64,000 bases of DNA, taken from positions 1,426,001-1,490,000 of the forward strand of contig NZ_CP044523.1 in NCBI RefSeq assembly GCF_008831545.1, read 5' to 3'. Every line of letters begins with the position of its first letter. Position 1 is the stretch's first letter. The notes under the pieces were generated by a model, which was given only the letters and a program-made list of their open reading frames with translations, made no database searches and was not told the DNA's origin. The position numbers and the translations under genes were made by a program. Below, piece by piece: positions 13,928 to 35,970 of the stretch. The DNA comes from Halorussus halophilus. GTDB lineage: Archaea > Halobacteriota > Halobacteria > Halobacteriales > Haladaptataceae.

Positions 13928-14027
13928 ACTTTGAGAGAATAAGTCAATCAGTAAAAGTGTAGTGCCGTTGGGAACGGCGTAGATAGCTCTCCTCAGAGTG
14001 AGCAAAAACGAAAAACCGCAAAGTCAG

Positions 14028-14417: not shown

Positions 14418-14729
14418 GTGTTTGATTTCTCCGTTTTCACGCACGTTCTCATAGGAGAGAATTGGCCGTTGGGTTTATATTGAAAACACTCGACTGCATG
14501 AGTGTAGGTGCGTGCCTGTCAAGCCGCCCCAACCGCCGTTTTCTCGGATGATTCACGTGCTTATCCAGCCGTACAAAGGCATACTATATAAATACTGGCT
14601 TATGTGAAAGCGTAATTACTGAAACTGAGTATTCCATCCGCCTGAAACGATTGGTAACTGATAACACACCCACCGCCACACCGAGAAAGACCATCCTTTA
14701 AGAACACTGGCTTAGTAGCAAACGACAAG
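14418..14729. other. Divergent promoter region, pilin and HNH-repeat gene
   Basis: This 312-base gap holds no gene. It has the pilin TATA on the minus strand near 14476-14484, a strong plus-strand TATA candidate CTATATAAATA near 14584-14594, and a nearer one (CTTTAAGA) about 30 bases before the ATG at 14730. Confidence 0.45.
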
Positions 14730-15617
14730 ATGAGCCACCCGACGAGCGCAGACGAAGCGACACTCCGAACAAGCCTTCAGTCGCTCGCCGCGCAACTCGG
14801 CAAAACACCAACCGTCGTGGAAATGCACGAACAGGGCGACCACGACCCACACGACTACCTCGACGTGTTCGGCGGCTGGGACCACGCGCTCCAAGAAGCA
14901 GGTCTCGACCCAGACGAAGCGAAAGTCAAAATCACCGACCGCGAACTCCTCGTCGAACTCCAACGCCTCGAACAACAACTTGGACACACGCCGACACAAG
15001 AGGACGTGGCCGAACAGAGCGACCACTCCCATCAGACGTACAAAAACCGATTCGGAAGCTGGAACAACGCGATAGAGCAAGCGATGCTTCCAACGAACGA
15101 TATTTCCGAGAAGGATCTGCGACAGGAACTCGAACGGGTCGCCGACGACCTCGGCCACCCACCGACCGCCGAGGAAATGAACCAGCACGGCGAGTACGCG
15201 GCCGTCACCTACCACCGCCGATTCGGGTCGTGGCTCGACGCACTCAACGAATGTGACTTCGACACAACCCAGACCCAGATTACAGACACAGAGCTACTCA
15301 CGGAGATTGAACGCGTAGCGACAGAACTTGAGAAATCGCCATCTGAAACCGACTTTGAAGAACATGGCCGCTTCCATCCACAAACGTACACCAAACGATT
15401 TGGGTCGTGGAATCAAGCGCGAGAACTGGCCGGTGTGGCGGTCCCAACACAGAAAATCTCCGAACAGGAACTACTGGCCGACCTCGTTCGAATTGCCGAG
15501 AGTCTCGGGCACGAACCTGTACAAGCCGAGATAGATGAGCATAGCCAATTCGGGATTGCGACGTATCATCGTCACTTCAATTCGCTCGATGAAGCCCGAC
15601 GCCGCGCGCTCGACTAA
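14730..15617 (+). CDS. Protein of five homing-endonuclease-associated repeats
   Basis: A 295-residue protein made almost entirely of five tandem units of about 57 residues, each roughly L-x3-L-x2-(L/V)-A-x-x-L-G-x-(T/P)-P-T ... Y-x3-F-G-(S/G)-W-x2-A-(L/I). The units lie at about 10-62, 68-122, 124-178, 182-236 and 240-293. This matches the helical DNA-binding repeat that accompanies HNH and other homing endonucleases (PF18780-type) in haloarchaea. No nuclease motif is present, so it is a repeat-only protein and may bind DNA in a modular way. Its neighbours are a pilin and a primase. Role unknown. Confidence 0.75.
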   Translation: MSHPTSADEATLRTSLQSLAAQLGKTPTVVEMHEQGDHDPHDYLDVFGGWDHALQEAGLDPDEAKVKITDRELLVELQRLEQQLGHTPTQEDVAEQSDHSHQTYKNRFGSWNNAIEQAMLPTNDISEKDLRQELERVADDLGHPPTAEEMNQHGEYAAVTYHRRFGSWLDALNECDFDTTQTQITDTELLTEIERVATELEKSPSETDFEEHGRFHPQTYTKRFGSWNQARELAGVAVPTQKISEQELLADLVRIAESLGHEPVQAEIDEHSQFGIATYHRHFNSLDEARRRALD

Positions 15618-15643: not shown

Positions 15644-16819
15644 CTAAAGACGCCCCGGTCGATCACACTCCTTGAGATTGGCTTCCTGCTGTTCGAGTTC
15701 GGTTTCGAGATCGTCGATGCGGTCGTTCTTCCACTCAAGCAGCGTCTCCAGTTCTTCAACACGGTCGGTCAACAACCGATTCTTCTCGGACAGATACGCA
15801 CGACTACGTCCAGCATCTTCGCCCTCGGAGTCAGCAGCCGACACGTCTTTCCTCGTGGACTCCGCCAGGACATTCTCCCTTACGTCGGGGTCATAGAACT
15901 CTGAGGTCCGACGTACTGCTCGTTCGACGGTCTTCTCGCCGTACGTAGACCCATCGGCGTAGTGGACCTCATCCCACTTCCCACGAAGTAGTCCTGATTG
16001 GCGGAACAACCGATCAATCTGCGTCTGATCGCCACCCGTCCAGAACGCCAGCAGACAACACAACGCCATGTCGGCCTCCGACTGACTCTCATACCCCACC
16101 GTGTTTCCAAGGTAGAGACGCTCGAACTTCTCCCCATTCGACGCCTCTCGAGCCTTCGCTACTAGCTCCTCGTCGTCGAGGCCTACGTCACTACCGCCCT
16201 TGGATGGACCACCACTCCCAGACTGCTCGCTCGGACCGCCACGCTCCCCGGACGTAGACGGATTCGCACCAACGGTGTCCTGAACGTACTCACGATGGAT
16301 CGCCGCGAGCGCGTCCTGCCGCCGGGCAACACGCGTCGGTGTCCCCGCGACATGGTCACCCGTCACCGTGAAGAACCGAGCGTGCTCGTACAACTCAACA
16401 CTCCCGCGACGATTCCCACCGTCTGGCAGCTCCCCCTCAACGAGTACATGGAACCCAGTCCCGGACGGCGACACCTCCGTGTAGGAGTCCAATCGCTCGA
16501 TGATATCCGCCGCCACACCATCGACATCACCCGTTTCCGGGTTCCGGAAGTCATCTAGGTCAACCCCCACGAAGGGATCGTCTTCGGTGAACACGAAGCC
16601 CACACCATCCGCACCCCCGGTTTCAGCATAGTCGAGCGCGGCCTCGAACGTAGTCCATGTCTCCCGGTCCGTCGACGACGCAAACTCACCGCTTCCTGGT
16701 GTCACTGGAATCTTCGTTGCCTTCCCATTACGCTGCTCGGAACGCCAACACACCCACTGCTCACAATCCCGAAGACAACTCGGAACCACATCTCGTTCAC
16801 CCTCTAGTATCGACCCCAT
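15644..16819 (-). CDS. NrS-1-type primase-polymerase-like protein (AEP superfamily)
   Basis: About 391 residues from the ATG at 16819. The N-terminal archaeo-eukaryotic primase fold is visible: WVCWR near the start, VGVDLDDFRNPETG (catalytic D-x-D), SPSGTGFHVLVEG (the S-G-T-G-x-H motif) and ARFFTVTGDH. Then follows the helical domain of NrS-1 polymerase-like proteins, SEADMALCCLLAFWTGGD and IDRLFRQSGLLRGKWDE. The end (about 325-390) is a coiled coil. Such proteins start replication of phages and plasmids. The frame extends to 16924, and a TATA-like TAGTATAGATAG near 16950 would fit that start, but the extra residues are Cys/Trp-rich and unlike haloarchaeal protein. The same catalytic pattern recurs in the large gene at 32301. 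Confidence 0.8.
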   Translation of the reverse strand: MGSILEGERDVVPSCLRDCEQWVCWRSEQRNGKATKIPVTPGSGEFASSTDRETWTTFEAALDYAETGGADGVGFVFTEDDPFVGVDLDDFRNPETGDVDGVAADIIERLDSYTEVSPSGTGFHVLVEGELPDGGNRRGSVELYEHARFFTVTGDHVAGTPTRVARRQDALAAIHREYVQDTVGANPSTSGERGGPSEQSGSGGPSKGGSDVGLDDEELVAKAREASNGEKFERLYLGNTVGYESQSEADMALCCLLAFWTGGDQTQIDRLFRQSGLLRGKWDEVHYADGSTYGEKTVERAVRRTSEFYDPDVRENVLAESTRKDVSAADSEGEDAGRSRAYLSEKNRLLTDRVEELETLLEWKNDRIDDLETELEQQEANLKECDRPGRL

Positions 16820-17165
16820 CACAGACACCTCCACCACTCGAACCCCCGACCCACAACACCAGGAACACAGACCTGCCTCACTCCTCGAGAACCAAGCCAT
16901 CGACCCAACCCCCGTCCACCCCATCCCACTGCGGATGCTCCCCTATCTATACTAGTTGGTTTCTGCGGGCGATTCTGCATGGACAGCACACCCGTCATGC
17001 GATTTTCAGTGGACACGGCCGACCGACAGTTGCGCTGTATGACCAGGCTCTGTGGACGGCCAGAGTACGACCGAGGTAGTGGGCGGAGAACCCCTGAGAC
17101 TGGGCGTATATCGGGAACAGGTCGACGGAACTCGTGGGAGGCGTCGCTATCTCTCAAACTCTGCA
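16820..17165. other. Intergenic region before the primase gene
   Basis: No gene recognised in these 346 bases. A TATA-like block on the minus strand near 16945-16957 is the likely promoter of the primase gene, which would separate it from the coupling-protein operon upstream. Confidence 0.4.
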
Positions 17166-20100
17166 TCATTCTGGTTCGCCTCCTTGGTCGAGAAGTTCGT
17201 ATCCTGTTTCCGTGAGGGCGAGATCGGTGTAGAATTGGACACGAGTGCCGTCCACTCTGCGCCGTTTGGTATCGAACTCGATTACGTCCCCTAATTTCCG
17301 GGTGAACCAGCTTTTGGTCGTTCCATCGATACCCTGTTGGTCCGCCCACTTCGTGTACGCTCGGTACACTTCGTCCTTCGGGACGCGGGTGTCCTCGGTC
17401 TGCGTGATGTACATCGCAGCGAACGCCTCGATACCGTTAGCAGTCACATCACCCTCCAACAAGGCGTCCGCCTCGGCAGATGCCGGGATATCCTCTACTC
17501 CAGCGTCAGACTCGATACCCCATGACTCATTCTCCCGGCGGGGTTCGTCAGTCGAGTCACCCGTAGTCGGCCAGAGAGTGCCGTCCTGAACGCATGTAGC
17601 GAGCGGGTAGGTGAGTCCGTGCTGAAAGAGGAGTGGAGCGTCGTCGCTGGGGAGAATCAGGATAAGGTACTGGTCGCGCGAGAGTGGTGGGTCCGGAAGT
17701 TCAACGTCGGGGACGAACGGTCGTTTGACTGGAACCCACGCTGCTTCGAAGTCGTCTTTCGAGTCGTAGACTGTGGTCTCCCCTGGTTCATGCACCGTGT
17801 ACTGGCCGGTTTCACGGTCATGGCTGTAATAGGCTGGAACGCGGTCCTTCGACAGACTCTCGTGGTCGGGGATGCGGGCGAACTCCGTCTTACCGTCCGA
17901 GAGGACTCGCTCATCCTCGTCGCGGGTCCAGACTGTCCGGTTCGAGTCAGCAGTTCGTGGTCGAATGGCTGTCACGCCGCCGCGAGTCGTCGCGCCACCG
18001 CTGAAGGTCACGACCTCGTCGCAGTTGTAGAACTGCTCGGTTCCATCGGCGAGTTCTCGCCACGGTGGCGAACACATATTCTCGATTCGGTCAGCCCACT
18101 CTGTCGTCGTCTCGCCGGGGCGAACGACGAAGATGGGAATCCTGCCGTCCTCGTGGGCGCGGGCGAGATTTCGGAGGACTTTCGCCGGACGCTCTGGCGT
18201 CGTTGACTCAGCTTCGATAGTGAACGCAGTATCGTACTCGGGATGCGTAGCGGTGGCGTCGGGTTGCGTGCTTCCGTCCTGCTCAACGATTTGAACGCTA
18301 AATCCTTGCTCAGTGAGTACTCGTTCGGTGTCACTCAGGAGTGCATCGTGTTCTGAGCCTCCGGCCGACCGCACGTCGCCTGTATCGGGTTGGACGATGT
18401 CTTCGCCGTCCTCGGAAAGTCGCGTTACGACGGCGTCGTTCTGAAGGTCGATATCGACCTCAATGAGCCGTGATGTGTCGCGTACATCGGGGAACTCCAG
18501 CGGGTCAGTTTCGATGTCGAGGTGGTCGTGGTCGGTCTGGTCGAGGCGAACCAATAGTTCCTCGTCAACCGTGGGGGCGTCCACCCAGCCATTGGTCTCG
18601 CGCACACCCTCTCGGAGTTGGACGGCACGAATCGCTTCCGCCATCGTCTCGGCCAGCAACTTCTCCGGGTTCGCCGCGTCGTTTGAATCGCTGTACAGGA
18701 GGTTCTGGAGGATTTCACCGTCGGTGAGTCGGTCGGCTCCATACCGGTGGAGACTCTCTTCGATGACGCCCTCGACAGCGTTAGCTGATCGGAGCGGTGG
18801 GTATGGTGGGAACGACTGGATGCGGACTGGCTCGGAGTACTGACCTCCATCGAGTGGGAGTTTCGTCCACGCTTGATACTGGTCGGTCGAGATGAGGTCA
18901 TCGGCCGTATACCCACGGAATCGCTTCATTAGGAGATGGGCGTCGTCCACGTCGTTCACCGAGAACGCGAGGAGGTTGTCGCAGTTGTTCAGCATTGCCT
19001 TGCGTGTCTCCTCGTCGAATTGCGAGGGAAACTGGGACGCAAGCGTCACCGAGAGCCGCATCGATCGGGCGCGGGCGAGCATTGATTTGATGCTGAGGTT
19101 GTCGCTTGCGATGTCGTCGAACTCGTCACACAATACGAAGTACGGGTCCGGCTTGGTGTCCTGTTCGTAGGACCGCTGCTGGATGGCGCTCCAGAGGTTC
19201 CGCATCACGCCGAGCGCGACCATCGTCTTGATGTCCGTGTTTTCCACGGGCGTGGACACGATGACGATCCGGTCGTTCTCGATGATATCCCGGAAGTCGA
19301 TGGTGCTCTCGCGGTGGGCGATGATGCGTCGGATGACTGCGTTCTCGACCCACGACTTGATTCGTTTCAGGAGTGGCCGTACCGTCTCGTCGTCCATGCG
19401 GGCGATTTCGAGACAGAACTCCCGCACATAGGGGTCTTCTACGTCACGGGCGAATTCCTCGCGACGCTTGGCGTTCAGCAGCGTGAAGTACATATCGATC
19501 ACCGAGAACGGCTTCTCGGACTGCAGCATCGCCCGGCCCATCGACTCGGTGATCGACTCCATGTTCACGCCCCAGTACTCGTCCGTGTCGAGGATTGCTT
19601 TCAGGTTCTCGATGCGGTTCTCGATCTCGTTCTCTCGCTCAGTTGTGGTGGCACAGTCGGGGAGTTTGAGGAAGTTCAGCCCAATCGTCTTGCCGTGGTC
19701 GGCCGCACCGGGTTCGATCCAGACCACGTCGTCAAGGCGGTGGGCGGGGAGTTTCCGCAAGAGTTCACGGGAGTCACGGGCTTTCGGGTCGATGTAGACG
19801 AAGCCATACCCGGCGTACGCCCACTGCACCATCATGTTCAGTAGCTCCGTGGTTTTGCCGTAGCCCGTCACGCCCGTAATCCAGTTATGCCGGAACAGGG
19901 AGTCGAACCGAAGTGGTGCTTCGCGGAACCCGCGACGAGCGTTCTGGTCGTAGCCAACCCAGAGCGGGCCACCCGGATTGTCGACCCCAGACTCGAACAT
20001 CTCGCGGACGTATTCTCCTGCCACGGTGCCTTCATTCGCTGTTTCAGTTTTGATGGCTTTGCCACCGACTGCGACGGTGTCGAGAGCGGTGATGTCGTAC

Positions 20101-20312
20101 GTCTCGTCAAGCCGCGAGCAGGGTACGGCGTCTGATTCGGGAACAGACGCCTCCTCGTCATTGGTCTCAGTACGGGCTGTTGTCTCTCCCGGTGGTGTAG
20201 CCGGGTCAGATTGAGACGACGGATCGGAGTCGGCATCATCTTGTCCGAAGAATCGATCAAGCACCGTCTTTCCCTCCGAGTCCGGTTCTGTCCTGTCGAT
20301 TCTCGCTATCAC
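17166..20312 (-). CDS. VirD4/TraD-like conjugative coupling ATPase
   Basis: A 1048-residue RecA-type motor of the HerA/FtsK/VirD4 group. A disordered acidic N-terminus (about 1-70) precedes the motor. Walker A is GVTGYGKTT at 147-155, followed by a membrane-protein-like MVQWAYAGYGFVYIDPKARD. Walker B is YFVLCDEFDD at 391-400 and the ASQFPSQFDEETR sensor region follows near 425. Coupling proteins bring DNA-protein substrates to the T4SS channel. Beyond about residue 540 is a 500-residue extension with a nuclease/Mrr-like stretch (EQDGSTQPDATATHPEYDTAF with IEAESTT following, a D...E-x-E arrangement near 690) and a C-terminal wHTH-like end. No N-terminal membrane helices are seen; the DUF8128-like protein upstream may supply the anchor. 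The ATG overlaps the upstream gene by 56 bases. Confidence 0.8.
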   Translation of the reverse strand: MIARIDRTEPDSEGKTVLDRFFGQDDADSDPSSQSDPATPPGETTARTETNDEEASVPESDAVPCSRLDETYDITALDTVAVGGKAIKTETANEGTVAGEYVREMFESGVDNPGGPLWVGYDQNARRGFREAPLRFDSLFRHNWITGVTGYGKTTELLNMMVQWAYAGYGFVYIDPKARDSRELLRKLPAHRLDDVVWIEPGAADHGKTIGLNFLKLPDCATTTERENEIENRIENLKAILDTDEYWGVNMESITESMGRAMLQSEKPFSVIDMYFTLLNAKRREEFARDVEDPYVREFCLEIARMDDETVRPLLKRIKSWVENAVIRRIIAHRESTIDFRDIIENDRIVIVSTPVENTDIKTMVALGVMRNLWSAIQQRSYEQDTKPDPYFVLCDEFDDIASDNLSIKSMLARARSMRLSVTLASQFPSQFDEETRKAMLNNCDNLLAFSVNDVDDAHLLMKRFRGYTADDLISTDQYQAWTKLPLDGGQYSEPVRIQSFPPYPPLRSANAVEGVIEESLHRYGADRLTDGEILQNLLYSDSNDAANPEKLLAETMAEAIRAVQLREGVRETNGWVDAPTVDEELLVRLDQTDHDHLDIETDPLEFPDVRDTSRLIEVDIDLQNDAVVTRLSEDGEDIVQPDTGDVRSAGGSEHDALLSDTERVLTEQGFSVQIVEQDGSTQPDATATHPEYDTAFTIEAESTTPERPAKVLRNLARAHEDGRIPIFVVRPGETTTEWADRIENMCSPPWRELADGTEQFYNCDEVVTFSGGATTRGGVTAIRPRTADSNRTVWTRDEDERVLSDGKTEFARIPDHESLSKDRVPAYYSHDRETGQYTVHEPGETTVYDSKDDFEAAWVPVKRPFVPDVELPDPPLSRDQYLILILPSDDAPLLFQHGLTYPLATCVQDGTLWPTTGDSTDEPRRENESWGIESDAGVEDIPASAEADALLEGDVTANGIEAFAAMYITQTEDTRVPKDEVYRAYTKWADQQGIDGTTKSWFTRKLGDVIEFDTKRRRVDGTRVQFYTDLALTETGYELLDQGGEPE

Positions 20313-21495
20313 GACTCGGTCTTGAGCCGTCAGTCGCTCGAACGTCAGTTGACAGTCTGTCGTGGTTGGTGCGGCTAGTTTGGGCGTTTTTGCTGAAATG
20401 GCTACGGTCAGCCTGAAACGATGATACAGAGTACGACTGGCTGTCGGCAGGGACGCCGACGCCAGCGGCCAGTCGCGACCAGTCGATATCAGAGTTCTCG
20501 ATATCCTCGTTCGGGAAGTGGACGAGTCCGGCGAGTTCGTTCACCGTCAGGACGTTTGCTCGCCCCCAGAGCGTGCGTTTGAGCCAGCTTCTGGGCGTGA
20601 GCGTTCGCATTCCTGCGGCCTCAAGAACAGCGGGAAGGTGAGACGAACTCGCGTATCTTGGTTCGAAGCCTTGGCTCGTATGGTCGTGGTCGAAGACACG
20701 GACGGCGTCGGTAATGCGCTGCAGTCGGTGTGCTGCCGTTGGTCCATCAGGAGCAATCGAGAGAACGCGGATGGTAGTGGCGAACGCTGGGTGGCCCAGT
20801 TGGGCGGCGATATCGTCGGCAGCCTGTGTGTCGCGTTTCGACTGCACGACTTGCGGGTCAAGATACCCCTCGACGGTTCCTTGGCGGCGCGAGTGGGCGA
20901 GACGGGTGACGTCGCCGTGTCCGGATCGTCCGAGGAGTCCGCGTCGAGTCCATGTCTGGGTGACGGGCATGAACACGATTTGGAGGATGGTCGTTTCCTC
21001 ATCAGCGCCGACGAGGCGTGACAGGAGCGTCCGATACGGGTCGTCGTCAAGTGGGGGCCGTGAGTCGAGGTGTTTTATCGGAAATGCGGTGTCCTGCTTG
21101 AGCTGGAGGTGACCGCCGGCAACGTGCTGGCCGGGGATGATATCCGGAAACCCGCTGTCATCGACTGTTTGCGTCTCGCTGTTCGGATAGTGGGCGTTAA
21201 CGAGCGCGATTGCGTCCTGCTGGTCTGGTGCGCGAAGGTAGAATTGGAGTTGCCCATCTTCGAACCAGATTTCGGCGGCGTACACGGGCGCGCCACGACG
21301 ACGGAATGTCCGGGCGGGCGTGGTGTGGAGTCCACGGAGAAAGCGAGGACCAGCTTGAATGCCGTCCGTATCGAGGAATGGGCGAACCTGTATGAGTGGC
21401 TCGTCGGCTGCGGCTTCACGTGTCTGGGCGACTAGCTCGGATGTTAGTTCGATGCTGTGTGGTGAGGTCGTAGTCGTTGAGGTGGTGAATCCCAT
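20257..21495 (-). CDS. DUF8128-like T4SS adaptor (coupling-protein N-terminal module)
   Basis: About 412 residues from the ATG at 21495 (MGFTTSTTTT); the frame is open to 21573, but that would overlap the upstream gene. The body has ferredoxin-like alternation of strands and helices: a VYAAEIWFEDGQLQFYLRAP strand pair, PFLDTDGIQAGPRFL, ATTIRVLSIAPDG, and VLTVNELAGLVHFPNEDIEN near the end. In Gram-positive and candidate-phyla conjugation systems, a similar module with an L-S-x-E-E-L-A-x-x-x-H-x-P end (DUF8128) sits directly before the TraD-type motor in one chain. Here it is encoded separately, just before the motor gene. The C-terminal 60 residues are polar and likely disordered. Assignment rests on pattern, not a search. 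Confidence 0.55.
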   Translation of the reverse strand: MGFTTSTTTTSPHSIELTSELVAQTREAAADEPLIQVRPFLDTDGIQAGPRFLRGLHTTPARTFRRRGAPVYAAEIWFEDGQLQFYLRAPDQQDAIALVNAHYPNSETQTVDDSGFPDIIPGQHVAGGHLQLKQDTAFPIKHLDSRPPLDDDPYRTLLSRLVGADEETTILQIVFMPVTQTWTRRGLLGRSGHGDVTRLAHSRRQGTVEGYLDPQVVQSKRDTQAADDIAAQLGHPAFATTIRVLSIAPDGPTAAHRLQRITDAVRVFDHDHTSQGFEPRYASSSHLPAVLEAAGMRTLTPRSWLKRTLWGRANVLTVNELAGLVHFPNEDIENSDIDWSRLAAGVGVPADSQSYSVSSFQADRSHFSKNAQTSRTNHDRLSTDVRATDGSRPSRDSENRQDRTGLGGKDGA

Positions 21496-21530
21496 GATGT
21501 TGGGGTGGAGTCGTGTGGTTGGTCGGTGTG

Positions 21531-22637
21531 TTACTTGCGGTGCTGGTCGTCTGTGAGTGCTGAGCGAAGCCACTGGGGAAACACGTCGAGGATGGCGTCA
21601 CGGACGTTGGAGTCGTATGGCAGTCGTCGCGCGGTGAACGTGAGCGCGACGATGGCGGGAATCGCGGCGAGAATTCCAGTCGTGGTCGGTGCGAAGACGC
21701 CGGGGAACGGAACGCCGAAGGTGAGTGCGAGTAGGCCGGGGAGGATGCCGACTCGACCGGCAATCATCCACGGACCACGAGAGGGCTTCCAGATGCCGAT
21801 AGCGAGGTCGTGACGGATGGCGAGGTCGATGTACCACGCGACACCGACGGCACCTATCGTCCAGATAGTACCGGCGAGCAGTTGTGTAAGCGGTGTTGTA
21901 GGGCCGACTCCCGTTGTGGTGCCCAAGAGACTGAGTGCGCCGATGCCAGCGGTCACACCAGCGGCGGTGAGTGGGACCCACGGATGGTGCGTTCGGGTGC
22001 GATACCCGCGTGGGTCGAAGTGCACGCGCTCAACGGCATGGGCCGTGTACGCGACACCGACGAATCCACCGACGAGCCATGGCCGTGCGACGAACTCAAC
22101 ACCAATTGTGCCCGCCGTCATGACGGTCGTGTAGGCCCAGTGACTGCCGTTGTTGGCATCCGCTGTGAGACTTCCGACAATGCCAGCCACGATGACGATG
22201 GCTGCGACGAGGGCGACAGCGCCGACGATGCTTGCGGCGACGCGGCGCGCGAACAGTGATGTTGCAGTCGGGTCGGACACCCAGTACGCGAGATACTCCA
22301 ACCGAGTGGGTTCGTGCTCGCGTTCTTGGACCCGTTTGGCACAGACGTCAGCCCGCCATGCAGCGGTCGGCCGATTCACACATGATTCGCACAGCAGGAC
22401 TTGGTTCTCGACGGTGTACACGTTCTCGACGAGTTCACGGAGAACGAACGGATCGCCCTCAGCTAAATCGCCAGCGGCAGGGAGGTAGACAGTCTCCTGG
22501 CATGCCTCACAGGTCGCGCTCTCCCGTCCGAGCACTTCCGCAATCACCGCTGGCAGGTCGTATTCGCGGGTGAGCGGTGACCATACGACGGCCGTCCGTC
22601 GTGTTTCCTCGATTGGAGTGTAGTCCTCGGGGTCCAT
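21531..22637 (-). CDS. T4SS-cluster membrane protein with a CxxC zinc knuckle
   Basis: About 368 residues from the ATG at 22637 (MDPEDYTPIEE). A longer start is possible at a GTG (22724) that overlaps the stop of the VirB4 gene as GTGACTAG. The N-terminal cytoplasmic part has C-E-A-C and C-E-S-C pairs about 45 residues apart, fitting a zinc ribbon. At least six membrane segments follow, for example VGAVALVAAIVIVAGIVGSL, FVGVAYTAHAVERVHF, LLAGTIWTIGAVGVAWYI and GILAAIPAIVALTF. It lies within the secretion operon between VirB4 and the DUF8128-like gene, so it probably belongs to the transfer apparatus. No bacterial counterpart is recognised. Confidence 0.6.
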   Translation of the reverse strand: MDPEDYTPIEETRRTAVVWSPLTREYDLPAVIAEVLGRESATCEACQETVYLPAAGDLAEGDPFVLRELVENVYTVENQVLLCESCVNRPTAAWRADVCAKRVQEREHEPTRLEYLAYWVSDPTATSLFARRVAASIVGAVALVAAIVIVAGIVGSLTADANNGSHWAYTTVMTAGTIGVEFVARPWLVGGFVGVAYTAHAVERVHFDPRGYRTRTHHPWVPLTAAGVTAGIGALSLLGTTTGVGPTTPLTQLLAGTIWTIGAVGVAWYIDLAIRHDLAIGIWKPSRGPWMIAGRVGILPGLLALTFGVPFPGVFAPTTTGILAAIPAIVALTFTARRLPYDSNVRDAILDVFPQWLRSALTDDQHRK

Positions 22638-22716
22638 GGCGGTGTTCGTCGAAGGAACGGTCTTGGCTCTCGTCTGGTTGGGGTCGTCGCTCGGTTTCGT
22701 GCTGGTGGAGATGACG

Positions 22717-24711
22717 CTAGTCACTGGACTGCCCCCTCTCCTCTGCCGGTGAAGTGTCTCGATCCGGTTGCGAATCTCGTGAGTCGTCGGCTTCGATGAG
22801 TGCTTCCTCTTCAGGGAGCGCAGTGACGCGAAGCGGGTAGGTGCCGTCTTCGTCGATGTCGAGGAGCGCGGTACTGAATCCAAGTCCCTCTTTCCCGACG
22901 ACGGCGTCGCGGACGAATGCGGCCTGTGCGTCGGTGAGTCCGAGCGCGTCGGCGTGCGCTTGCGTGAGGTTGCCCTGGCGATGCAGGAGTTTAATCGAGG
23001 ACTGGTTGATGAACGTCTCCGCGCCGTCGGTATCGTAGAAGTCCGCGAGTTCCTGCGTGACGAAATGCAGGGAGAGATCGAGATGACGCGAGTGGCGGGT
23101 CGTCCGCTTTAACCACTCGACGCTCCCTGGTGACTCGACGAGGTAGTGGCCCTCGTCAATCGCGACGATAGTGTTACCGGTTGCGCCCTTGAGGCGTTCG
23201 TAGACCGCATCGTACAGTGGCTGCATCACGAGGCCTGCGAGCGCGCCATCTGAACTGCCGCCAAACTGCTGTAAGTCGAGGTAGATGACGCGACTGTCCG
23301 TGAGATCAACTTCGGTCTGGCCGTTCAGGAACGCGAACTGGCCGCCAGTCGTGAACGGTTCGAAGTTCAGGCGGAGGTCTTCGGCGTGGTGTTGCCACGT
23401 GTCGAGTTCGCCCGACGAGTAGTCCTCGCCATTGAGGACCGTTCGCGGGTCGGTGGCGATGTCGCCGAGAACGACACGCACGTCCTCGATGATTGGACTG
23501 TCATGGTGATGGGTCGTGGGGTCGTCTGTAATGCCGTTTCGGGCGTAGGCTTCCCGGACGCATCGTTCGAGGACTTGCCGTCGGTCGCCGAGTGGCGCGC
23601 CGATGTACGCGAAGAACGATTCGAAGAACGCCATTACGGCGCTAGTTCGCTCGGTGAATGGGCTGCCGGATTCGTTCTCAAGGAGGTGGGCGGGCGTTGG
23701 CCGTATTTCGAGGGGGTTGACCGTCCGTGTGCCGCCGATGACGTAGTGTTCGGCGTCAAGACTCTCGGCGAGGCTGGCGAACCCACCGACAGGGTCGATC
23801 ATGACGAGTCCAGTGTCGCGGTCTTTCGCCATTCGCCGAAGCAGAAGCCGCTTCGTGTCGTATGATTTCCCGGACCCAATCTCACCAGCGACCAAGACGT
23901 TGTAGCCGTTTTCACGGGCAAATCGGTCGAGATAGATTGGCGCGCCGGTCGTGGCGTGATACCCGTAGAGGACGCCGCTCTCCTCAATTGTCGTGCTCGC
24001 GGCGAACGGGAATAGCGCGCCTACTGCCTGCCCGAGCATCGGCGTCGTTTGTTTGAGTTCGTCTTTCGCGACCGGACTCCCTGTGACGAGCGCGTCGTCC
24101 TGCCGGTAGGCTGCTGTCTTCGTCGTCAATCGCTGGCGTTCGAGTTCCCCACGAATGCTCGTGGCCACGCTTTCGACTTGCTCCTCGGACGTGCCACGGA
24201 TGGTCAGATAGACGCCGACGTTGAGGACGCGCTGGGCGTTCTCCTGCAGTTGTGCGTACACCGACTCGTGGTCACGGATCCGACGCTCTGTGACTGTCGT
24301 CTTTGCCGACCCCTGCTCTTGAGCCTCGATGTGGTCGACTTTGAGTGACTTAATCGCGCTCTCGAATTGAAGAAGTGACGACCGAGGGTCCTCTGGGTCA
24401 GCGTAGATTGTCACGTCCACGTCGGCACTTGGATGCGTGCAGACGCGGTCGAGCAGTCCCGGTGACGCAGACTCCGGAAATCCGGTGACGAACAGCGTCT
24501 TCACCCATCGATCCCCTGTCCGTGTGGTCCTTGATTCGAGACGTACGCCCGATGGGGCCACTTGAGTCGCATACGTTGCCCTGCGAGTCCCCTCCCGGCC
24601 ATTGCCAGAAGACGAGTCATCGGTATCTTCGTCGGTGTCAGTAGGGGTGTGAGTAGCTGTCTCGGCGGTACGTCCGGGGATGAAGTCGGTGAGTCGGGAG
24701 AGGATGTTCAT
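22717..24711 (-). CDS. VirB4/TrbE-like conjugation ATPase
   Basis: A 664-residue protein of the CagE/TrbE/VirB4 family. The N-terminal part (about 55-250) is the end of the VirB4 N-domain (VTGFPESASPGLL, ADVDVTIYADPEDP). The motor has Walker A GEIGSGKS at 276-283, MIDPVGGF near 305, YLDLQQFGG near 480 and Walker B TIVAIDEGHYL at 514-523, followed by RHSRHLDLSLHFVTQE. VirB4 powers T4SS pilus assembly and substrate transfer. Part of the N-domain appears to be on the preceding protein, whose stop overlaps this ATG (ATGA at 24708-24711). It is the most diagnostic gene of the cluster. Confidence 0.85.
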   Translation of the reverse strand: MNILSRLTDFIPGRTAETATHTPTDTDEDTDDSSSGNGREGTRRATYATQVAPSGVRLESRTTRTGDRWVKTLFVTGFPESASPGLLDRVCTHPSADVDVTIYADPEDPRSSLLQFESAIKSLKVDHIEAQEQGSAKTTVTERRIRDHESVYAQLQENAQRVLNVGVYLTIRGTSEEQVESVATSIRGELERQRLTTKTAAYRQDDALVTGSPVAKDELKQTTPMLGQAVGALFPFAASTTIEESGVLYGYHATTGAPIYLDRFARENGYNVLVAGEIGSGKSYDTKRLLLRRMAKDRDTGLVMIDPVGGFASLAESLDAEHYVIGGTRTVNPLEIRPTPAHLLENESGSPFTERTSAVMAFFESFFAYIGAPLGDRRQVLERCVREAYARNGITDDPTTHHHDSPIIEDVRVVLGDIATDPRTVLNGEDYSSGELDTWQHHAEDLRLNFEPFTTGGQFAFLNGQTEVDLTDSRVIYLDLQQFGGSSDGALAGLVMQPLYDAVYERLKGATGNTIVAIDEGHYLVESPGSVEWLKRTTRHSRHLDLSLHFVTQELADFYDTDGAETFINQSSIKLLHRQGNLTQAHADALGLTDAQAAFVRDAVVGKEGLGFSTALLDIDEDGTYPLRVTALPEEEALIEADDSRDSQPDRDTSPAEERGQSSD

Positions 24712-25859
24712 TGTCGGGGTTCCTCTGTGTCAGCGGGAGTCGTGGGGTTAGTCGGCGAACGGGGCGTTCCGGGGTCAGGGTCAGGTTCGGAAGTGTGGTC
24801 ACTCAGGACGACGGGTGTGGTTCGGAGATGTGGGCCAGCGTCGGGGTACGCGGTTCGCTGCCCGGACCAGTATTCTTCGACGAGCGTGACGAGGTCGGCC
24901 GCTGGCACTGTTTGGACGCCGATATCCTCGACACTCCGCAATTGGTCTGAAAGATGGGAGCGTCGCTCATCGAGAAGCGCGCGCTGTCGTGCTTCGATGG
25001 CTTCCCGGCGGTCGTCCCGCAGGAGTACATCGGCGAACAGCGATGCGAGTGGGTCACCGACGAGTGGAATGGTCGCGAGGCGACTAACCCACGTATGCTC
25101 CTCAAGACTGACCGACTCGATTCCAACCGGGACGAGAACGTGGTATTGGCGAACACTCGTCCCACGCTCGCGGAATTCCTGTGGCCGACGCCGACGGTAT
25201 ACGTCGACGATTTCTGCGAGTGCCGGTGTTGACCTGACGTCAGGGTCGGTTCGTCGGTCGTCGTACGCGGCGGTCAGTTGCGCGGGGTTGACGCGACGCG
25301 CCGACGAATGAATCTGGACGGGATAGTCGAGTGTGTTCAAGACGGCTCCGAGTCCGCGTGCCGACCGCTCCCACTGGTCGCGGTCAGCGAGCGCGAGATT
25401 CGCTGGCTCGATGCGGACTGCACCGACGAGCGTCTCGTCCCGACGCCGAATCGCGTCGGCTTCCGGTTCGACTGTCTGAATCTGCGTTAGCTTCCGCGCG
25501 TCTGGCGGTGGGTCGGTGGCTGAATCGGTGGTTTCGTTGGTGAGTGTCATGGTGGTCTCGCGTCGATGATACGTGATGAACGACCGGAGGAGGCCAAGCG
25601 GCGTCCGGTGGTCCGGACAGATGTGGACGTATGCACCAGCAACGCCGAGGACGAGTACTGCGAGCGCGACGCCGACGAAGAAGCGGCCCGTCGCGATGAC
25701 GACTACTTCGAGCGTCACCATCGCGGCGAGGAGTGCTGGGACGAGAAAGAGGAGGTCCGAATTGGAAATCTCTGCAAACGCGAGGAAGCCAGAGTCAGAC
25801 CCCACGTCGTCGAGGATACGGCGCTCCGGGTCGTCGCCCTGTGGACCAAGGCGCGTCAT
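24708..25859 (-). CDS. PrgI-like membrane protein fused to a VirB4 N-terminal segment
   Basis: A 383-residue protein. Residues about 35-80 hold two adjacent membrane helices (VPALLAAMVTLEVVVIATG and FFVGVALAVLVLGVAGAYV) and a short P-rich turn, RTPLGLLRSFITYHR, as in PrgI proteins of Gram-positive conjugation. The rest (about 110-330) reads like the N-domain of VirB4: ADAIRRRDETLVGAVRIEP, DYPVQIHSSARRVNP and RQYHVLVPVGIESVSLEE. In Gram-positive systems PrgI is a separate small protein and this domain belongs to VirB4. The fusion and the split are therefore unusual. It overlaps its neighbours by ATGA at both ends (25856-25859 and 24708-24711), so translation is coupled. Confidence 0.65.
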   Translation of the reverse strand: MTRLGPQGDDPERRILDDVGSDSGFLAFAEISNSDLLFLVPALLAAMVTLEVVVIATGRFFVGVALAVLVLGVAGAYVHICPDHRTPLGLLRSFITYHRRETTMTLTNETTDSATDPPPDARKLTQIQTVEPEADAIRRRDETLVGAVRIEPANLALADRDQWERSARGLGAVLNTLDYPVQIHSSARRVNPAQLTAAYDDRRTDPDVRSTPALAEIVDVYRRRRPQEFRERGTSVRQYHVLVPVGIESVSLEEHTWVSRLATIPLVGDPLASLFADVLLRDDRREAIEARQRALLDERRSHLSDQLRSVEDIGVQTVPAADLVTLVEEYWSGQRTAYPDAGPHLRTTPVVLSDHTSEPDPDPGTPRSPTNPTTPADTEEPRQ

Positions 25860-27733
25860 CGTGGCCCACCGTCCTCACTGCGTGCGTCGAAGACAGCATC
25901 ACGACTGATGCCTGTTTGTTCGGATGTACTCGTACCCCACTCCTCGCCCGCAACGGGTGTCGCGTCGTACAGGACGCCGTCGCTTTCACCACGGTGGTAG
26001 ACACCCGGATGGTCGCCATCGGAGTCGTAGGCCGCCGCAAAGCGGTCGTGTTCTCGAACGACGAGTTCTCGGGTCTGTCCACTAGATTCGATTGGCTGGA
26101 ATTCTCCATTAGAGACGTACCCCGGCTGGTAGCGCTGTCCATCCGGCATATCACGCTGGTTCTCAACCAGAACCTGATTCGTCTCATCAACGGCACCAGC
26201 AGCTGTACTCGTGCTTCTGTTTGTCGTCGCGCCCACGGCTGTGTTCGTGGTGCCGGGACGACCGCCGGTCGGCGTCCCAAGTGTAGCGATATCGCTGGAT
26301 TGGCTGGTGTGGCCCTCTGTTTCAAGTGCGCCGACTGTGCTGGCAGTCCCACTACTCTTTACGCTACTGTGGGTAGACGCCATGCCACCAAATTGAGCAG
26401 ATGGGCTGCGAGAGCCAACCGTCGCGCCGGTCGCTGAACCAGCACCGACGCTTGCTCCGCGACTCGACATGGAGGCTTTGCTGGCGAGAGTTCTTGCTCC
26501 CGATTTCGCCCGTGAGTACATCGCGGCACCGCCGAGTCCGGCCATGACACCACCGGCAGTCCTCGCTGCTCGCGACCCCAAAAGCATCCAGAGGGTCGCC
26601 ACCAGTGCCGCGAGTTGTGTGACGAACGTGACGGCGGCAAACGCAAGCGTGCCAGCGACCTCCGCAAAGCCACCGACTGCGACTGCGCTCTCAACGAATC
26701 CCATTGTGCCGCCTGCGATGTAGCCACCGGCACCGAGGACAAGTGCTGCTGGGAGCGGGAAGAACGCGGCGCGAATGAAGATATCCCATCCGGTTTGGCC
26801 GAACTGTCCTATCGTCTGTAGGACGCCCCCAGTGTCGAACAGCATGAGCGCTGAGAACACTGGCAGAAACACCATGAACGTGAGACACAGGACGTAGGCC
26901 ATGAGGGTCGTGACGAGCAGAATCGTCACGACGGCCGCCGTCGCAACCCACAGCAAGCCTGCGAGGAGTCCTGTACCGAGGAGCGTTCCAATGCCGGATT
27001 TCGGGCCTGCAATCAGCTGGTCGCCGCGTGGGGCGACGGCGAGAATCAACGCGTTCGCGAGGTGCAGGACGAACGCGCCCAGCCACCACGACCCGATGGT
27101 GAGCACGAGATTTCGTGCGAGGTTCTGCTCGATCTGGAAGCCATGGGTGGCGAACGTGGCGTCCGGTCGGAATCGGCTGGCGAGTGCGACGCCAACGCCG
27201 ACCACCCACACGAGGAACCCAAGCGGCAGGCCAACTGTGGTCCACCCGTGGTATGCGCCTACCAGCGGCTGGTTCGTCGGTGGTCGGAAGACCACGATAA
27301 CGCCATCGCTCTTCGGCACGGGTCGCCGGAGGATTAACTCGAGCGTACTGCGGGCGATGTCCTGTGTGGCGTCGAGGGCGCCACCGAGAATACTTCGTTT
27401 GGTGTTCTCGATGACGTTACAGAGTGCACCCCGAATCGGTCCTTTCCCAGCACACGAGGCATAGGAGTTAGTATCCTCCGACGAACTAGTCGAGATGAGG
27501 ACGCTCGACGCGGGCAATCCCTGGAACGGCGTTGATTCAGGTGAGGCCGTTGGGTGAAGATTCGTGGTTGTAGTCGTCGTGTTCGCGCTAATCTCGTTTG
27601 GTGGTCTGCTGGCTGGGGCTGCAAGGGCAGGCGTCACGAGGCTGGTCGTGATGAGTACGAGAGTAGCAAATACGACTACCCGGTGCCGCGCTCGTACTGT
27701 CGGAGCGATGTCGAAGCCTGTCGTCGGGAGCAT
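25856..27733 (-). CDS. VirB6/TrbL-like multi-pass channel protein
   Basis: About 625 residues from the ATG at 27733; the frame runs on to 28099, but that part lies under the next gene. The start MLPTTGFDIAPTVRARH leads into a signal-like VVVFATLVLITTSLVTPALA. At least six membrane segments follow between about residues 150 and 420, including VGLPLGFLVWVVGVGVALA, TVVTILLVTTLMAYVLCLTF-type text and AALVLGAGGYIAGG. The C-terminal 200 residues are Ser/Gly/Thr-rich and polar. This layout, long polar tail after clustered helices, is that of VirB6/TrbL inner-membrane channel proteins. Stop and next start overlap as ATGA. Function by analogy only. Confidence 0.6.
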   Translation of the reverse strand: MLPTTGFDIAPTVRARHRVVVFATLVLITTSLVTPALAAPASRPPNEISANTTTTTTNLHPTASPESTPFQGLPASSVLISTSSSEDTNSYASCAGKGPIRGALCNVIENTKRSILGGALDATQDIARSTLELILRRPVPKSDGVIVVFRPPTNQPLVGAYHGWTTVGLPLGFLVWVVGVGVALASRFRPDATFATHGFQIEQNLARNLVLTIGSWWLGAFVLHLANALILAVAPRGDQLIAGPKSGIGTLLGTGLLAGLLWVATAAVVTILLVTTLMAYVLCLTFMVFLPVFSALMLFDTGGVLQTIGQFGQTGWDIFIRAAFFPLPAALVLGAGGYIAGGTMGFVESAVAVGGFAEVAGTLAFAAVTFVTQLAALVATLWMLLGSRAARTAGGVMAGLGGAAMYSRAKSGARTLASKASMSSRGASVGAGSATGATVGSRSPSAQFGGMASTHSSVKSSGTASTVGALETEGHTSQSSDIATLGTPTGGRPGTTNTAVGATTNRSTSTAAGAVDETNQVLVENQRDMPDGQRYQPGYVSNGEFQPIESSGQTRELVVREHDRFAAAYDSDGDHPGVYHRGESDGVLYDATPVAGEEWGTSTSEQTGISRDAVFDARSEDGGPR

Positions 27734-27794
27734 CAGATTGACTGGCGAAAATCTGGATTGTTGTACTTCCGTCCGATGAGGTGGGAGTACGTGG

Positions 27795-28271
27795 TTAGAA
27801 CCATGGCGTGAGTTGCGCGCATTGGGCGGCGTTGAAGCCTGCGGCACCAGCGGCCTGTTCGCCGAGGACGATGACGAGGCCGAAGATCGGGCCAGCGACC
27901 ATCGCCATCGTACCCGTTTGCCGGTGTTCACTCGACCGCTCCGGGTTCCGTGACATCCCGGCACGGGCGTGTTTGAAGCCACCGTAAAGTAAACCTCCAA
28001 GGAAGAGTACGCCAGCACCAGTCCGCGCTGCCCATTCGAACAGGTCGATAGCGGGCGTACCACAGAGGCCACTGCCACTTGTCTGGGCGGCTGCAACACT
28101 CGTCATCGCGACGAGAGTGAGTATCGCGGGACCCGCCGGCGTCAGAGCACGGCCAGCAGCTGTGAAACATTGAGTGACGGCTTCACTTACTTGGTCATGG
28201 ACATGCGTCTCGGAGTCCTCGGTTGTTTGTCCAAAAGTCGACTTCTCACGGTGTAGGTTCCTGTTTTCCAT
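27795..28271 (-). CDS. VirB2/TrbC-like pilin or small channel subunit
   Basis: About 158 residues from the ATG at 28271 (MENRNLHREKSTFG); the frame continues to 28511 through promoter DNA and is not used. A long leader ends in GRALTPAGPAILTLVAMTSVAAAQ, a plausible signal with cleavage after A-A-A. The mature part has two hydrophobic segments, AARTGAGVLFLGGLLYGG and MAMVAGPIFGLVIVLGEQAAG, joined by a basic loop KHARAGMSRNPERSS. VirB2-type subunits have this two-helix form. It is first in the T4SS operon, 62 bases from the channel gene. Two palindromes lie in its promoter. Confidence 0.55.
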   Translation of the reverse strand: MENRNLHREKSTFGQTTEDSETHVHDQVSEAVTQCFTAAGRALTPAGPAILTLVAMTSVAAAQTSGSGLCGTPAIDLFEWAARTGAGVLFLGGLLYGGFKHARAGMSRNPERSSEHRQTGTMAMVAGPIFGLVIVLGEQAAGAAGFNAAQCAQLTPWF

Positions 28272-28700: not shown

Positions 28701-31130
28701 TTAGTAGTTCACCGTAATTGAGCCCGAACCAGTGTCAACTACTGCGCTGTGGTCGAAATCTACAGCTGCTTTTCTTTGCAGACCTTGCATCAGGTTTGAG
28801 AATTGTTCTTCATCCGCAAGAACCAGTCCTGTTTCCGAAGGAAGAACATCTCTCCACTCTATATCGATCTGGTTTTTCTTCTCCAGATTTTCTAGCTCGT
28901 GAAGTCCAGTGAGGTATTTCTGGCTTGCTTGAAGGGACGCCCAGTATTCAAAGCTAGCTGGCAAAACGACTTTGAAACGGGACTCATACCGGGAGAGGTC
29001 AATTCTGTCGGCAAGGTCTCCTTCTTGAATCTTTTCTGGAGTCACCCCGTTCTCAATAGCGTTCAGAGAGGGAACGATTGCGACCTCTTTTTTCAGTCCG
29101 ACTTGCTCACCACGACTGTATATTTCTCCTCGACGTTCAAGCCGGTCTATCTCCTCATTGATTGCCATCTCAGTGGCTAAATCCTCTTGAGGGACCCGAC
29201 CAGGGTTCCAGAACATGTTTCTTTGAACAGAATCTTCTGAAACTCTCCTCTCTTGCATCTGCTGGTAGACCATCCTGATGAGCTCCGTTCTGGGAAGTTC
29301 TCCTCTTTGTTTCAGTGAATTCTTTATCAGCTGGTTCCATTGGGATAGCTCCTGCTTCAAGGGGTACGCGGTAACACCGGCTGCCTCCGCTAATTGCAAA
29401 AGAGTCTCGTCTGCAGAGCAAAGAGGTACTTCCCGTTTCTTAGCGATGCGCATCAATGCCTGATCCACCGATATGTTGTCTTCTGTGTCAACAGAGTCTT
29501 CAACGGGGACAACCTCGAAATCAAGAATTCCTTTCTCTGATAGCTCCCTCAACGCCGTCAGCTCTTCAAGACCAAGCTTTCCACGGGAAGTATCTTGGTC
29601 TACTTGCCGATGCACTTCCTCTAACACTACCTCGGGTACCACAATGGTTGTATCATACAGATCCCCTTCCGAGACTAGCCGAGTAATGATCTGTGCGTCA
29701 ATAATACTGGTGTCTGCAACAAACTCCGAAAGGTCACTCGGAAAAAGCGGGGCATCAATACCCTCGACTTCTTCACTATTACTAGCAAATCCCCCGACGG
29801 CTTCGATAATTGCATCTTGATCCGGCGGTGCACGGGCTTCTTCTCTCATCTGATCTATAACCGTAGACTGTTGAATAGGGGTCTTTTGAACCCTCTCACC
29901 CCCAAACTCTCGCCAAGATACATCGCACCCCATTTCTGACTCTATTATATCGACAAGGGCCTCAACGTCTTCTTCGAATTCCCTCTTCTTTCTATATTTC
30001 TCTCCGTGAATCACCCAGTACTTGTGTGCGAAAAGCCGACGTCGAATCTCTCTCCTCCCATCCAGACTGTGGAAGGCAAATCCGTCATTCGCTGCACTCC
30101 ACCCCGAGAACTGTTCATGATCCCTGTCCCAGTCCGCTGTTTCTTGGGCCACCTTATTGGTCAAGAAAGGTGCTTCTGGTACACGAAGAGCAGTATAGAA
30201 GTCATATACTAGAGAAATATCTGCTTCTGTGGAAACTCGAACGAAGCCGTGGTAGTCATCTTGGTCTTCATTGAGAACTATCTTTGTGACTGATCCGACT
30301 TGGGCGAGTAGTCCTCTCCCACTTGGGTCCCGGATTGTACAAGATTCGGCCCATCCGAGAACTCTTCCCCGAAGAGATGAAGCTATCTCGTTGGATGAGA
30401 TTTGATACTCAGAAGCTACGACCCGTTTGTTCTGGTGGACATATACCTTCTTTACCTCAGGGAGGTCGTCATTCGAGAGTGGTTTTGCGCGGATAACCTT
30501 GTCAAACTCCACTTCATCCTCCTTCTCTTGTTTACCTTCCTGAAAGTTCCGGTACGTGAGGGAACACTCATATTGGAAGGCAAGAACTAGCGTCCGTAGA
30601 ACATCGAAACTCACGATGACGTCGGGATCGTCCAAGGATAGAGATTGCTCTGCTGCCTTCGAAGCTAAAAGGGAATCACGTTCACTCCAAGCATTTCCAA
30701 AGGCATCGACGATACCCTGGTCCTCATGGCGCGCTATGATTTCCCTTAGGGTACTCGGCGGAGACGCAGAAGTATCCCCAAGTTCATGGAGTTCGACGAC
30801 TGTACGCGCTAATACTTCTTCGTGCCCTTCTGATTCCTCTGGTGTGATGTTGCCTGGCTGATGACCAGGACCGACAGGAAAAATATCTGTCTTTATGTTC
30901 CCCGAATCATCCGCGTACTCTTCCGGAATCTGCTCGGAAATGCGACCAAGAACAGGAATTTCGATCAGCTCTGAGGAAGGACCATCTACAGCGACCATTC
31001 CAGATTGGCCAAAAGCGACCTTCCAATCTGGACTTTCAAGTTCAAAGCAGTCAGAAAGCCAGGTCTCCAAGTTCTCTAACGTAGTCCTTACTCCCTCCTC
31101 TATGGGTAAATAGCCCAGAGCTCCACTCAT
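28701..31130 (-). CDS. Large PIN-domain protein
   Basis: An 809-residue protein. A PIN nuclease domain at about 470-600 is clear: ADTSIIDAQ (Asp473), VPEVVLEEV (Glu504/505), SVDQALMRIAKKR (Asp556) and CSADETLLQLAEAAGVTAYP (Asp574), giving the acidic D-E-D-D set. The N-terminal 470 residues and the C-terminal 200 are unknown to me; the C-terminus has a wHTH-like stretch around VYQQMQERRVSEDSVQRN. PIN domains usually cut RNA. The length and central placement are unlike VapC toxins (about 130 residues). The gene has AT-rich composition and its own TATA (near 31160). It may be defence cargo. Confidence 0.65.
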   Translation of the reverse strand: MSGALGYLPIEEGVRTTLENLETWLSDCFELESPDWKVAFGQSGMVAVDGPSSELIEIPVLGRISEQIPEEYADDSGNIKTDIFPVGPGHQPGNITPEESEGHEEVLARTVVELHELGDTSASPPSTLREIIARHEDQGIVDAFGNAWSERDSLLASKAAEQSLSLDDPDVIVSFDVLRTLVLAFQYECSLTYRNFQEGKQEKEDEVEFDKVIRAKPLSNDDLPEVKKVYVHQNKRVVASEYQISSNEIASSLRGRVLGWAESCTIRDPSGRGLLAQVGSVTKIVLNEDQDDYHGFVRVSTEADISLVYDFYTALRVPEAPFLTNKVAQETADWDRDHEQFSGWSAANDGFAFHSLDGRREIRRRLFAHKYWVIHGEKYRKKREFEEDVEALVDIIESEMGCDVSWREFGGERVQKTPIQQSTVIDQMREEARAPPDQDAIIEAVGGFASNSEEVEGIDAPLFPSDLSEFVADTSIIDAQIITRLVSEGDLYDTTIVVPEVVLEEVHRQVDQDTSRGKLGLEELTALRELSEKGILDFEVVPVEDSVDTEDNISVDQALMRIAKKREVPLCSADETLLQLAEAAGVTAYPLKQELSQWNQLIKNSLKQRGELPRTELIRMVYQQMQERRVSEDSVQRNMFWNPGRVPQEDLATEMAINEEIDRLERRGEIYSRGEQVGLKKEVAIVPSLNAIENGVTPEKIQEGDLADRIDLSRYESRFKVVLPASFEYWASLQASQKYLTGLHELENLEKKNQIDIEWRDVLPSETGLVLADEEQFSNLMQGLQRKAAVDFDHSAVVDTGSGSITVNY

Positions 31131-35795: not shown

Positions 35796-35897
35796 GCCGT
35801 CTCACCCTTGTTGTGCGCGGCCTGTCGAGGATAGAAAACGAGGTTTTCGGCTGCGCTATGGGAGTTTATTATTTGGCTTGTAAGGATATTGGTATAA

Positions 35898-35970
35898 GCC
35901 AGGGGTGGGATTTGAACCCACGAACTCCCGATTACAAGTCGGGTGCTTGAACCGCCCAAGCTCCCCTGGC
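35898..35970 (-). tRNA. tRNA-Thr (anticodon UGU)
   Basis: 73 bases folding as a full cloverleaf: acceptor GCCAGGG/CCCTGGC, D arm GCTT/AAGC, anticodon stem CCCGA/TCGGG with loop CTTGTAA, T arm GTGGG/CCCAC with TTCAAAT. The anticodon UGU reads ACA (Thr). No CCA is encoded and no intron is seen. The 3' end faces the mobile element and is its likely attachment site. Confidence 0.93.

Follow-up and report, generated by a model that had tools for sequence, protein, structure and literature searches.

Within a 64,000-nucleotide window of the 3.6-Mb chromosome of Halorussus halophilus (contig NZ_CP044523.1, positions 1,426,001 to 1,490,000), seven minus-strand genes form the operon of a minimal type IV secretion system (T4SS) whose coupling motor, TraD, carries a predicted nuclease-like domain and winged helix and is followed by an array of short repeats (iterons) that it likely recognises. 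Judged by the open-access literature, this is a T4SS of monoderm/archaeal type whose coupling protein has a new architecture, matched by an origin-like array. On balance, we lean towards reading it as the transfer operon of a haloarchaeal integrative and conjugative element (ICE), in which the winged helix of TraD binds the array as an origin and the nuclease-like domain is proposed to cut. A first-pass annotation of the operon had missed both the tail of TraD and the adjoining array, the most informative feature of the locus.

To characterize TraD (residues numbered from the GTG at 20312) and its neighbors, AF2 models were compared by Foldseek and VIA, and sequences were searched with Pfam and NCBIfam models and PDB sequences. 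The motor, with invariant Walker A and DE, matches TraG-D_C (2.5e-5), TIGR03743 (6.4e-10), and IcmO/DotL (6.9e-5). TraD does not have the N-terminal transmembrane (TM) anchor of classical VirD4 proteins, and no hydrophobic segment was found in it or in the adaptor encoded upstream; type IV coupling proteins without a TM domain are a recognised class (PMC7431656). In the model of the tail (489 residues, pLDDT 78.7), the VIA rows for residues ~93-357 were nearly all PD-(D/E)XK-type proteins (Can2, PaqCI, FokI, NucS, Hjc, BspD6I, and DdmD), at Z 5-8. DSSP assigned an alpha-beta-beta-beta-alpha-beta core, in which D126 precedes strand 2 and strand 3 bears E141-x-E143. These residues, D685, E700, and E702 of the protein, sit at the location expected of an active site and are invariant in sets of 30 and 32 sequences with identities down to ~22-26%. 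We predict from this model that residues ~640-760 adopt a PD-(D/E)XK nuclease fold. The C-terminal end is likewise predicted to be a winged helix, most like those of RFX (1dp7, Z 11.2) and the phage P4 origin-binding domain (1ka8, Z 9.3; both by VIA), with a Pfam match to Pox_D5 (2.5e-5).

We read 40 loci from the genome search and 45 named loci from GTDB genomes. Relatives carry their iterons directly 3' of traD, ahead of the primase-like gene, at offsets of -102, -89, -58, and -28 from the motif AACCAACTAGTATA; an NrS-1 polymerase/primase-like gene lies immediately downstream of TraD in 46 loci. Arrays of four to six iterons were counted in 20 loci, versus at most 0.13 expected. Three iteron classes were distinguished, TGTCCAnnCA, TGTTCAGGG, and TGTCCnGGGTA, and the array in the window belongs to class A. 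Identity of the winged helix covaries with identity of the iterons (r 0.67; partial r 0.65-0.66 given motor identity; 0 of 2000 permutations), while the partial r is 0.24 for the nuclease domain and 0.23 and 0.08 for the first 100 residues and the rest of the downstream gene. Residues 1000, 1001, and 1004 of TraD, where the predicted recognition helix begins, are among the most informative. A rule drawn from this helix (KGWFT for class A, [AS]xWF for B, and xVWF for C) was set on the first 32 systems and gave the correct iteron class in all 14 plasmid systems outside the rule-making set, which were scored afterwards. Helix class equaled iteron class in 44 of 44 systems, across at least nine switches on the motor tree, and the supported independent pairs were concordant in five of five cases, a number with which a sign test is unable to pass 0.05. 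This covariation, strongly supported at the sequence level, makes it likely that TraD recognises the array. As a separate observation, downstream of traD in L094, L093, and L095, which have a TraD type of ~1,540 aa, apparent arrays of their own (GTTCCACCCAA; GGTCAGGGgAAA) stand beside a AACCAACTAG-like motif.

Table 1. Features of the operon, its array, and its surroundings (window positions), with the giant fused proteins of other loci
Feature	Position	Strand	Description
tRNA-Thr(TGT), integration site	35897..35970	-	Right end of the element at 35896
VirB2-like small subunit	27795..28271	-	Signal-like stretch and C-terminal hydrophobic segments; likeliest start ATG 28271
VirB6/TrbL-like polytopic channel protein	25856..27733	-	Seven hydrophobic segments across the open reading frame; likely start ATG 27733
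PrgI4N	24708..25859	-	VirB3/PrgI-like TM pair (31-49, 60-78) and first part of the VirB4 N-terminal domain
VirB4 motor ATPase	22717..24711	-	NCBIfam CD1110, E 4.8e-50; PDB 4ag5 VirB4, 8.5e-10
Zinc-knuckle membrane protein	21531..22724	-	C125-x2-C and C165-x2-C; at least three hydrophobic segments
Adaptor	20257..21495	-	Predicted stand-alone VirB4-type N-terminal domain, no TM segment; start ATG 21495
TraD	17166..20264	-	VirD4-like motor, aa 96-540; predicted PD-(D/E)XK-like domain, ~640-760; predicted winged helix, ~955-1040; no TM segment
Iteron 1	17048..17058	-	CGTCCACAGAG, degenerate; fixed offset from the anchor as in relatives
Iteron 2	17035..17045	-	TGGTCATACAG, degenerate
Iteron 3	17005..17015	-	TGTCCACTGAA
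Iteron 4	16975..16985	-	TGTCCATGCAG
Conserved anchor	16948..16961	-	AACCAACTAGTATA; candidate nick or melt site; near-invariant in array-bearing loci
NrS-1 polymerase/primase-like protein	15644..16924	-	Just past the array; PF22763, 1.4e-30
Giant fused proteins	L097:6525-13748, L098:2864-12745, L099, L100, L104, L109		2,400-3,400 aa; adaptor, TraD motor, and nuclease-like tail in one protein

The operon is a minimal T4SS, with VirB4 and TraD as its two motors. The first-pass annotation had proposed a T4SS-like operon of seven co-directional, mostly overlapping genes with VirB4 and VirD4-like motors, and this holds: all seven minus-strand open reading frames lie where it placed them (17166 to 28271), most of them overlapping, the ATGs at 28271 and 21495 are plausible starts, and both motors fall in T4SS families (CD1110 and TIGR03743), with further matches of VirB4 to Mbov_0397 (1.1e-40) and Pfam P-loop_TraG (3.9e-9). 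Its gene order recurs in other haloarchaea, well in excess of what coincidence would give. No family model in the Pfam and NCBIfam scans matched the VirB2-like and VirB6-like proteins, whose putative identities fit their topology and position; homologues of the former occur at the equivalent position in L073, L075, L143, and E1 (a second locus of this genome, see below), and homologues of the latter directly upstream of PrgI4N in 63 loci. The zinc-knuckle membrane protein, recognised earlier and borne out by its two CxxC motifs and hydrophobic segments, is confined to one sub-lineage (the window, L073, L075, L143, L105, and E1). A decayed, non-functional operon is unlikely, as the channel and motor genes are full length and open. 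Directly upstream of the operon, within a low-GC patch (~49%), an 809-aa PIN-domain protein is encoded at 28701-31130.

PrgI4N had been described as a PrgI-like membrane pair joined to VirB4 N-domain sequence, and comparison across haloarchaea agrees: of 61 loci, 48 encode it and VirB4 as one protein and the other 13 as two, a pattern for which two changes on the VirB4 tree suffice. The fused relative in L083 aligns with the VirB4 model of the mycoplasma ICE Mbov_0397 over residues 34-994, TM pair included, and the split falls within the VirB4 N-terminal domain, the VirB4 of the window aligning from position 189 of the CD1110 profile. By these alignments PrgI4N is the front part of VirB4; a VirB4 ATPase model was matched by 5 of 20 PrgI4N members.

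The adaptor, previously labeled DUF8128-like, has no match in the Pfam library searched, which lacks PF26449, the presumed DUF8128 entry, and we correct that label to a predicted stand-alone VirB4-type N-terminal domain. With its AF2 model (20260-21492; pLDDT 64.5), the first ten Foldseek rows were without exception TrwK/VirB4 of R388 or the inner-membrane complex that contains it (best E 2.6e-4), and VIA aligned 253 residues with R388 TrwK at Z 15.3, followed by ESX-3 EccE at Z 10.3. If the fold is right, each of the two motors has a VirB4-type N-terminal domain ahead of it. Pfam and NCBIfam scans of single adaptor and PrgI4N proteins yielded nothing useful, sequence profiles did not reach the similarity of the adaptor to the TrwK/VirB4 N-terminal domain, and profile comparison of PrgI4N with the adaptor detected no kinship, which leaves a recent duplication unsupported. 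In R388, the two VirB4 protomers of a pair are connected through their N-terminal domains, which also anchor them to VirB3/VirB8 (PMC12857230); by analogy, the adaptor may dock TraD in a similar manner. Both VirB4-type N-terminal domain proteins also resemble EccE of type VII secretion, PrgI4N by a sequence model matched in 6 of 20 members and the adaptor by the fold comparison above, a hint of a link between the inner-membrane parts of type IV and type VII secretion systems.

The order VirB6, PrgI4N, VirB4, (zinc protein), adaptor, TraD is conserved among the loci read. The full seven-gene form including the zinc protein was found in the window, G238, G017, and Halogranum amylolyticum (the relatives being L073, L075, and L143), with variants in dozens more haloarchaea. 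In 71 loci the adaptor and TraD are distinct proteins; six giants combine them, at least one of which (L098) additionally has a DnaG-type primase domain (TIGR01391, 5.3e-7), and the two are apparently joined in the ~1,540-aa TraDs too. The earlier view that both joints, PrgI with VirB4 and adaptor with motor, are changed is thus correct for the operon in the window and fails as a distinctive trait, since both vary across the family. The mating-pair formation (MPF) proteins of G238, G017, and Halogranum amylolyticum are 72-86% identical to those of the window, and only these three combine high identity in the motor and in the channel parts. In ~25 systems the TraD motor is 81-85% identical to that of the window, their VirB6, PrgI4N, VirB4, and adaptor just 22-35%. 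Conversely, in the fused clade (L082-L085 and L089 versus L072), VirB4 and adaptor are 78-90% identical and the TraD tail 31-34%. In the trees, window-type and fused-clade motors are close kin, with adaptors ~3 changes per site apart. These sequence comparisons strongly support the view that motor, tail, and channel have been swapped independently of one another.

The operon lies inside an integrated element of ~62.5 kb. Similarity to 18 of the 18 Halorussus-group genomes searched breaks off at the tRNA-Thr 3' terminus (window 35896), the left flank of the empty site was matched at G000:C1:1396989-1398985, with empty sites in related genomes, and a 14-bp repeat of the tRNA end is located at G000:C1:1399403, adjoining a 445-aa tyrosine integrase. 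A repeat search of the window missed both the att repeat, whose left copy is outside it, and the iteron array, whose units are short or degenerate. The element also encodes a TFB, a further tyrosine recombinase, and a type IV pilin, and it contains a defence island. The island (L009:920-14001) encodes a DrmD/BrxHII-like helicase, a DNA methylase, a DUF499 protein, and Mrr and McrBC-like proteins. Just past the primase-like gene, window 14730-15617 encodes a protein built of five homing-endonuclease-associated units (HNH_repeat, E 4.3e-90); the pilin gene, of archaeal type IV (Pilin_N, 1.8e-15), is at 14028-14444, and 13493-14005 encodes a small membrane protein.

Of 242 haloarchaeal genomes, 163 have TraD relatives and 59, from 27 of 73 genera, have the adaptor; tblastn against viral contigs found no relative. 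Natrinema pallidum and Halorussus litoreus, members of different families, have 10 kb in common at 94% DNA identity, which points to horizontal spread. TraD relatives also occur on 119 PLSDB plasmids, 118 of which are typed as non-mobilizable, presumably because such typing relies on relaxases. Two further VirB6-PrgI4N-VirB4 loci exist in the same genome, E1 and E2 (G000:C1:2703585-2709988, L005/L006, and 432786-437130, L007/L008), each with a TFB gene nearby and without TraD/VirD4; they are possibly import or orphan systems.

The first-pass annotation saw no relaxase, and this holds for the element, where none appeared among the Pfam matches of 46 open reading frames; PF03432 and PF13814 are absent from the genome. 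A PF03432 relaxase was found in 17 of 234 haloarchaeal genomes, few of them with the adaptor, and a scan of 30 genomes for Replic_Relax (PF13814) gave sub-threshold matches alone. Archaeal conjugation is described as lacking relaxases, and the preparation of DNA without a recognisable one is an explicit open question (PMC3158045, PMC6563490, PMC9905601). The same annotation suggested that DNA is processed in another way or that the relaxase is outside; we lean to the first option, with TraD itself as the possible site of processing.

Compared with known systems, the operon resembles those of MPF_FATA type (CD1110/CD1115, PrgI-PrgJ of pCF10, and the Mbov_0397 ICE) in VirB4, the VirB3/PrgI-like TM pair beside it, the position of VirB6, the VirD4-type motor, and the lack of outer-membrane parts. 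Unlike them, it has a VirB4 N-terminal domain whose first part is carried by the PrgI protein, an extra predicted VirB4-type domain before TraD, a TraD without TM segment and with a nuclease-like and winged-helix tail, and no relaxase. The conjugative plasmids and ICEs of Sulfolobales and Thaumarchaeota share VirB4 and VirD4, a VirB6-like channel, a TFB gene, and the absence of a relaxase, whereas no TraD tail, adaptor, or iteron array is described for them (PMC6563490). Fusexin-carrying haloarchaeal integrated mobile elements (IMEs) are alike in combining XerC/D-type recombinases with VirB4 and TraG/TraD genes, although these genes are given there only as IME signatures (PMC9259645). The Ced/Ted systems have VirB2, VirB4, and VirB6 parts and no relaxase, but are described as DNA-importing and without VirD4 (PMC9905601). 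Phage P4 alpha/D5-type primases offer the same winged-helix type, adjoining iterons, and a primase-like gene nearby; here, however, the winged helix belongs to a protein with a coupling motor and a nuclease fold in place of a P4 helicase.

Several observations weigh against TraD acting as a nuclease at its own origin. Two of the four iterons in the window are degenerate, type-B TraD tails (L082-L085, L089, and L144) occur without such an array, and the primase-like gene adjoining the array is compatible with a replication origin. Every PD-(D/E)XK match of the tail is below Z 8, so single matches prove little, yet the list is consistent; the third catalytic position is Glu (E702), not Lys. Finally, the spacer DNA between iterons covaries with the winged helix too (partial r 0.37-0.64). 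Pure linkage, with the final ~100 traD codons moving in one block with the intergenic DNA and no binding, would produce such spacers as well as the climb of the correlation toward the 3' end of traD, and because the spacers covary it remains a partial explanation. As the whole one we hold it quite improbable: the downstream coding side is about equally near the array yet hardly covaries, the first recognition-helix residues are among the most informative, the class agreement runs through all nine switches with zero mismatches, and iterons recur at fixed geometry in each array. Alternatively, the array might serve replication as an oriV or control the downstream primase-like gene as its operator, the winged helix coupling replication or expression to the T4SS with no cutting start. 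Its position between the two genes in the 46 loci would suit this, as would a winged-helix type found in replication proteins such as P4 alpha; still, array class follows the TraD winged helix (0.66) and not the primase-like protein (0.23, 0.08), and we regard this alternative as unlikely. We infer that the array is a transfer origin rather than a replication origin.

That TraD cuts DNA is suggested by its modeled fold, by the invariance of its acidic residues, and by the missing relaxase. DNA processing might instead fall to a different endonuclease, such as an unknown relaxase or a rolling-circle endonuclease of the Rep-Arvir (DUF7845) type, with the TraD tail only tethering the DNA and its nuclease fold catalytically dead. 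Rep-Arvir proteins have been reported on archaeal ICEs (PMC13107129), PF25227 (Rep-Arvir) lies 17-43 kb from the T4SS in five genomes (G101, G043, G058, G208, and G091), and ExE replaces ExK at the TraD site. We find this option doubtful, given that the sole PF25227 copy in the genome is ~590 kb from the element, that none was found in the T4SS carriers G162, G065, G066, G088, and G027, and that 32 diverse sequences all keep the acidic triad, as they would an active site. DNA import or protein secretion, by a Ced/Ted-like or effector T4SS, in place of conjugation would accord with the missing relaxase and with E1 and E2, if these are import systems; we judge it very unlikely, because a VirD4-type motor is present, which Ced/Ted systems are described as lacking, and the system is located on plasmids and an integrated element.

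Under the transfer-operon reading that we favor, VirB2, VirB6, PrgI4N, and VirB4 would constitute the membrane channel and energy unit, and TraD, having no membrane anchor, would dock via the adaptor as a second VirB4-type N-terminal domain. The winged helix would bind the array 3' of traD as the transfer origin, the PD-(D/E)XK-like domain would cut or nick there in place of a relaxase, and the motor would feed the DNA into the channel. Its most complete form is one that we offer tentatively and that could well prove wrong: relaxase-free conjugation by a coupling ATPase with its own origin recognition and endonuclease, docked by a VirB4-type N-terminal domain, with an iteron origin beside its own gene and a specificity exchanged by swaps of winged helix and array.

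For archaeal DNA preparation without a relaxase, the system provides a specific candidate that can be mutated (in D685/E700/E702, in the recognition helix, and in the array), and its VirB4-type adaptor provides a testable model for the docking of a membrane-free coupling motor. If true, this mechanism would explain why haloarchaeal plasmids are typed as non-mobilizable despite near-identical transfer regions across families.

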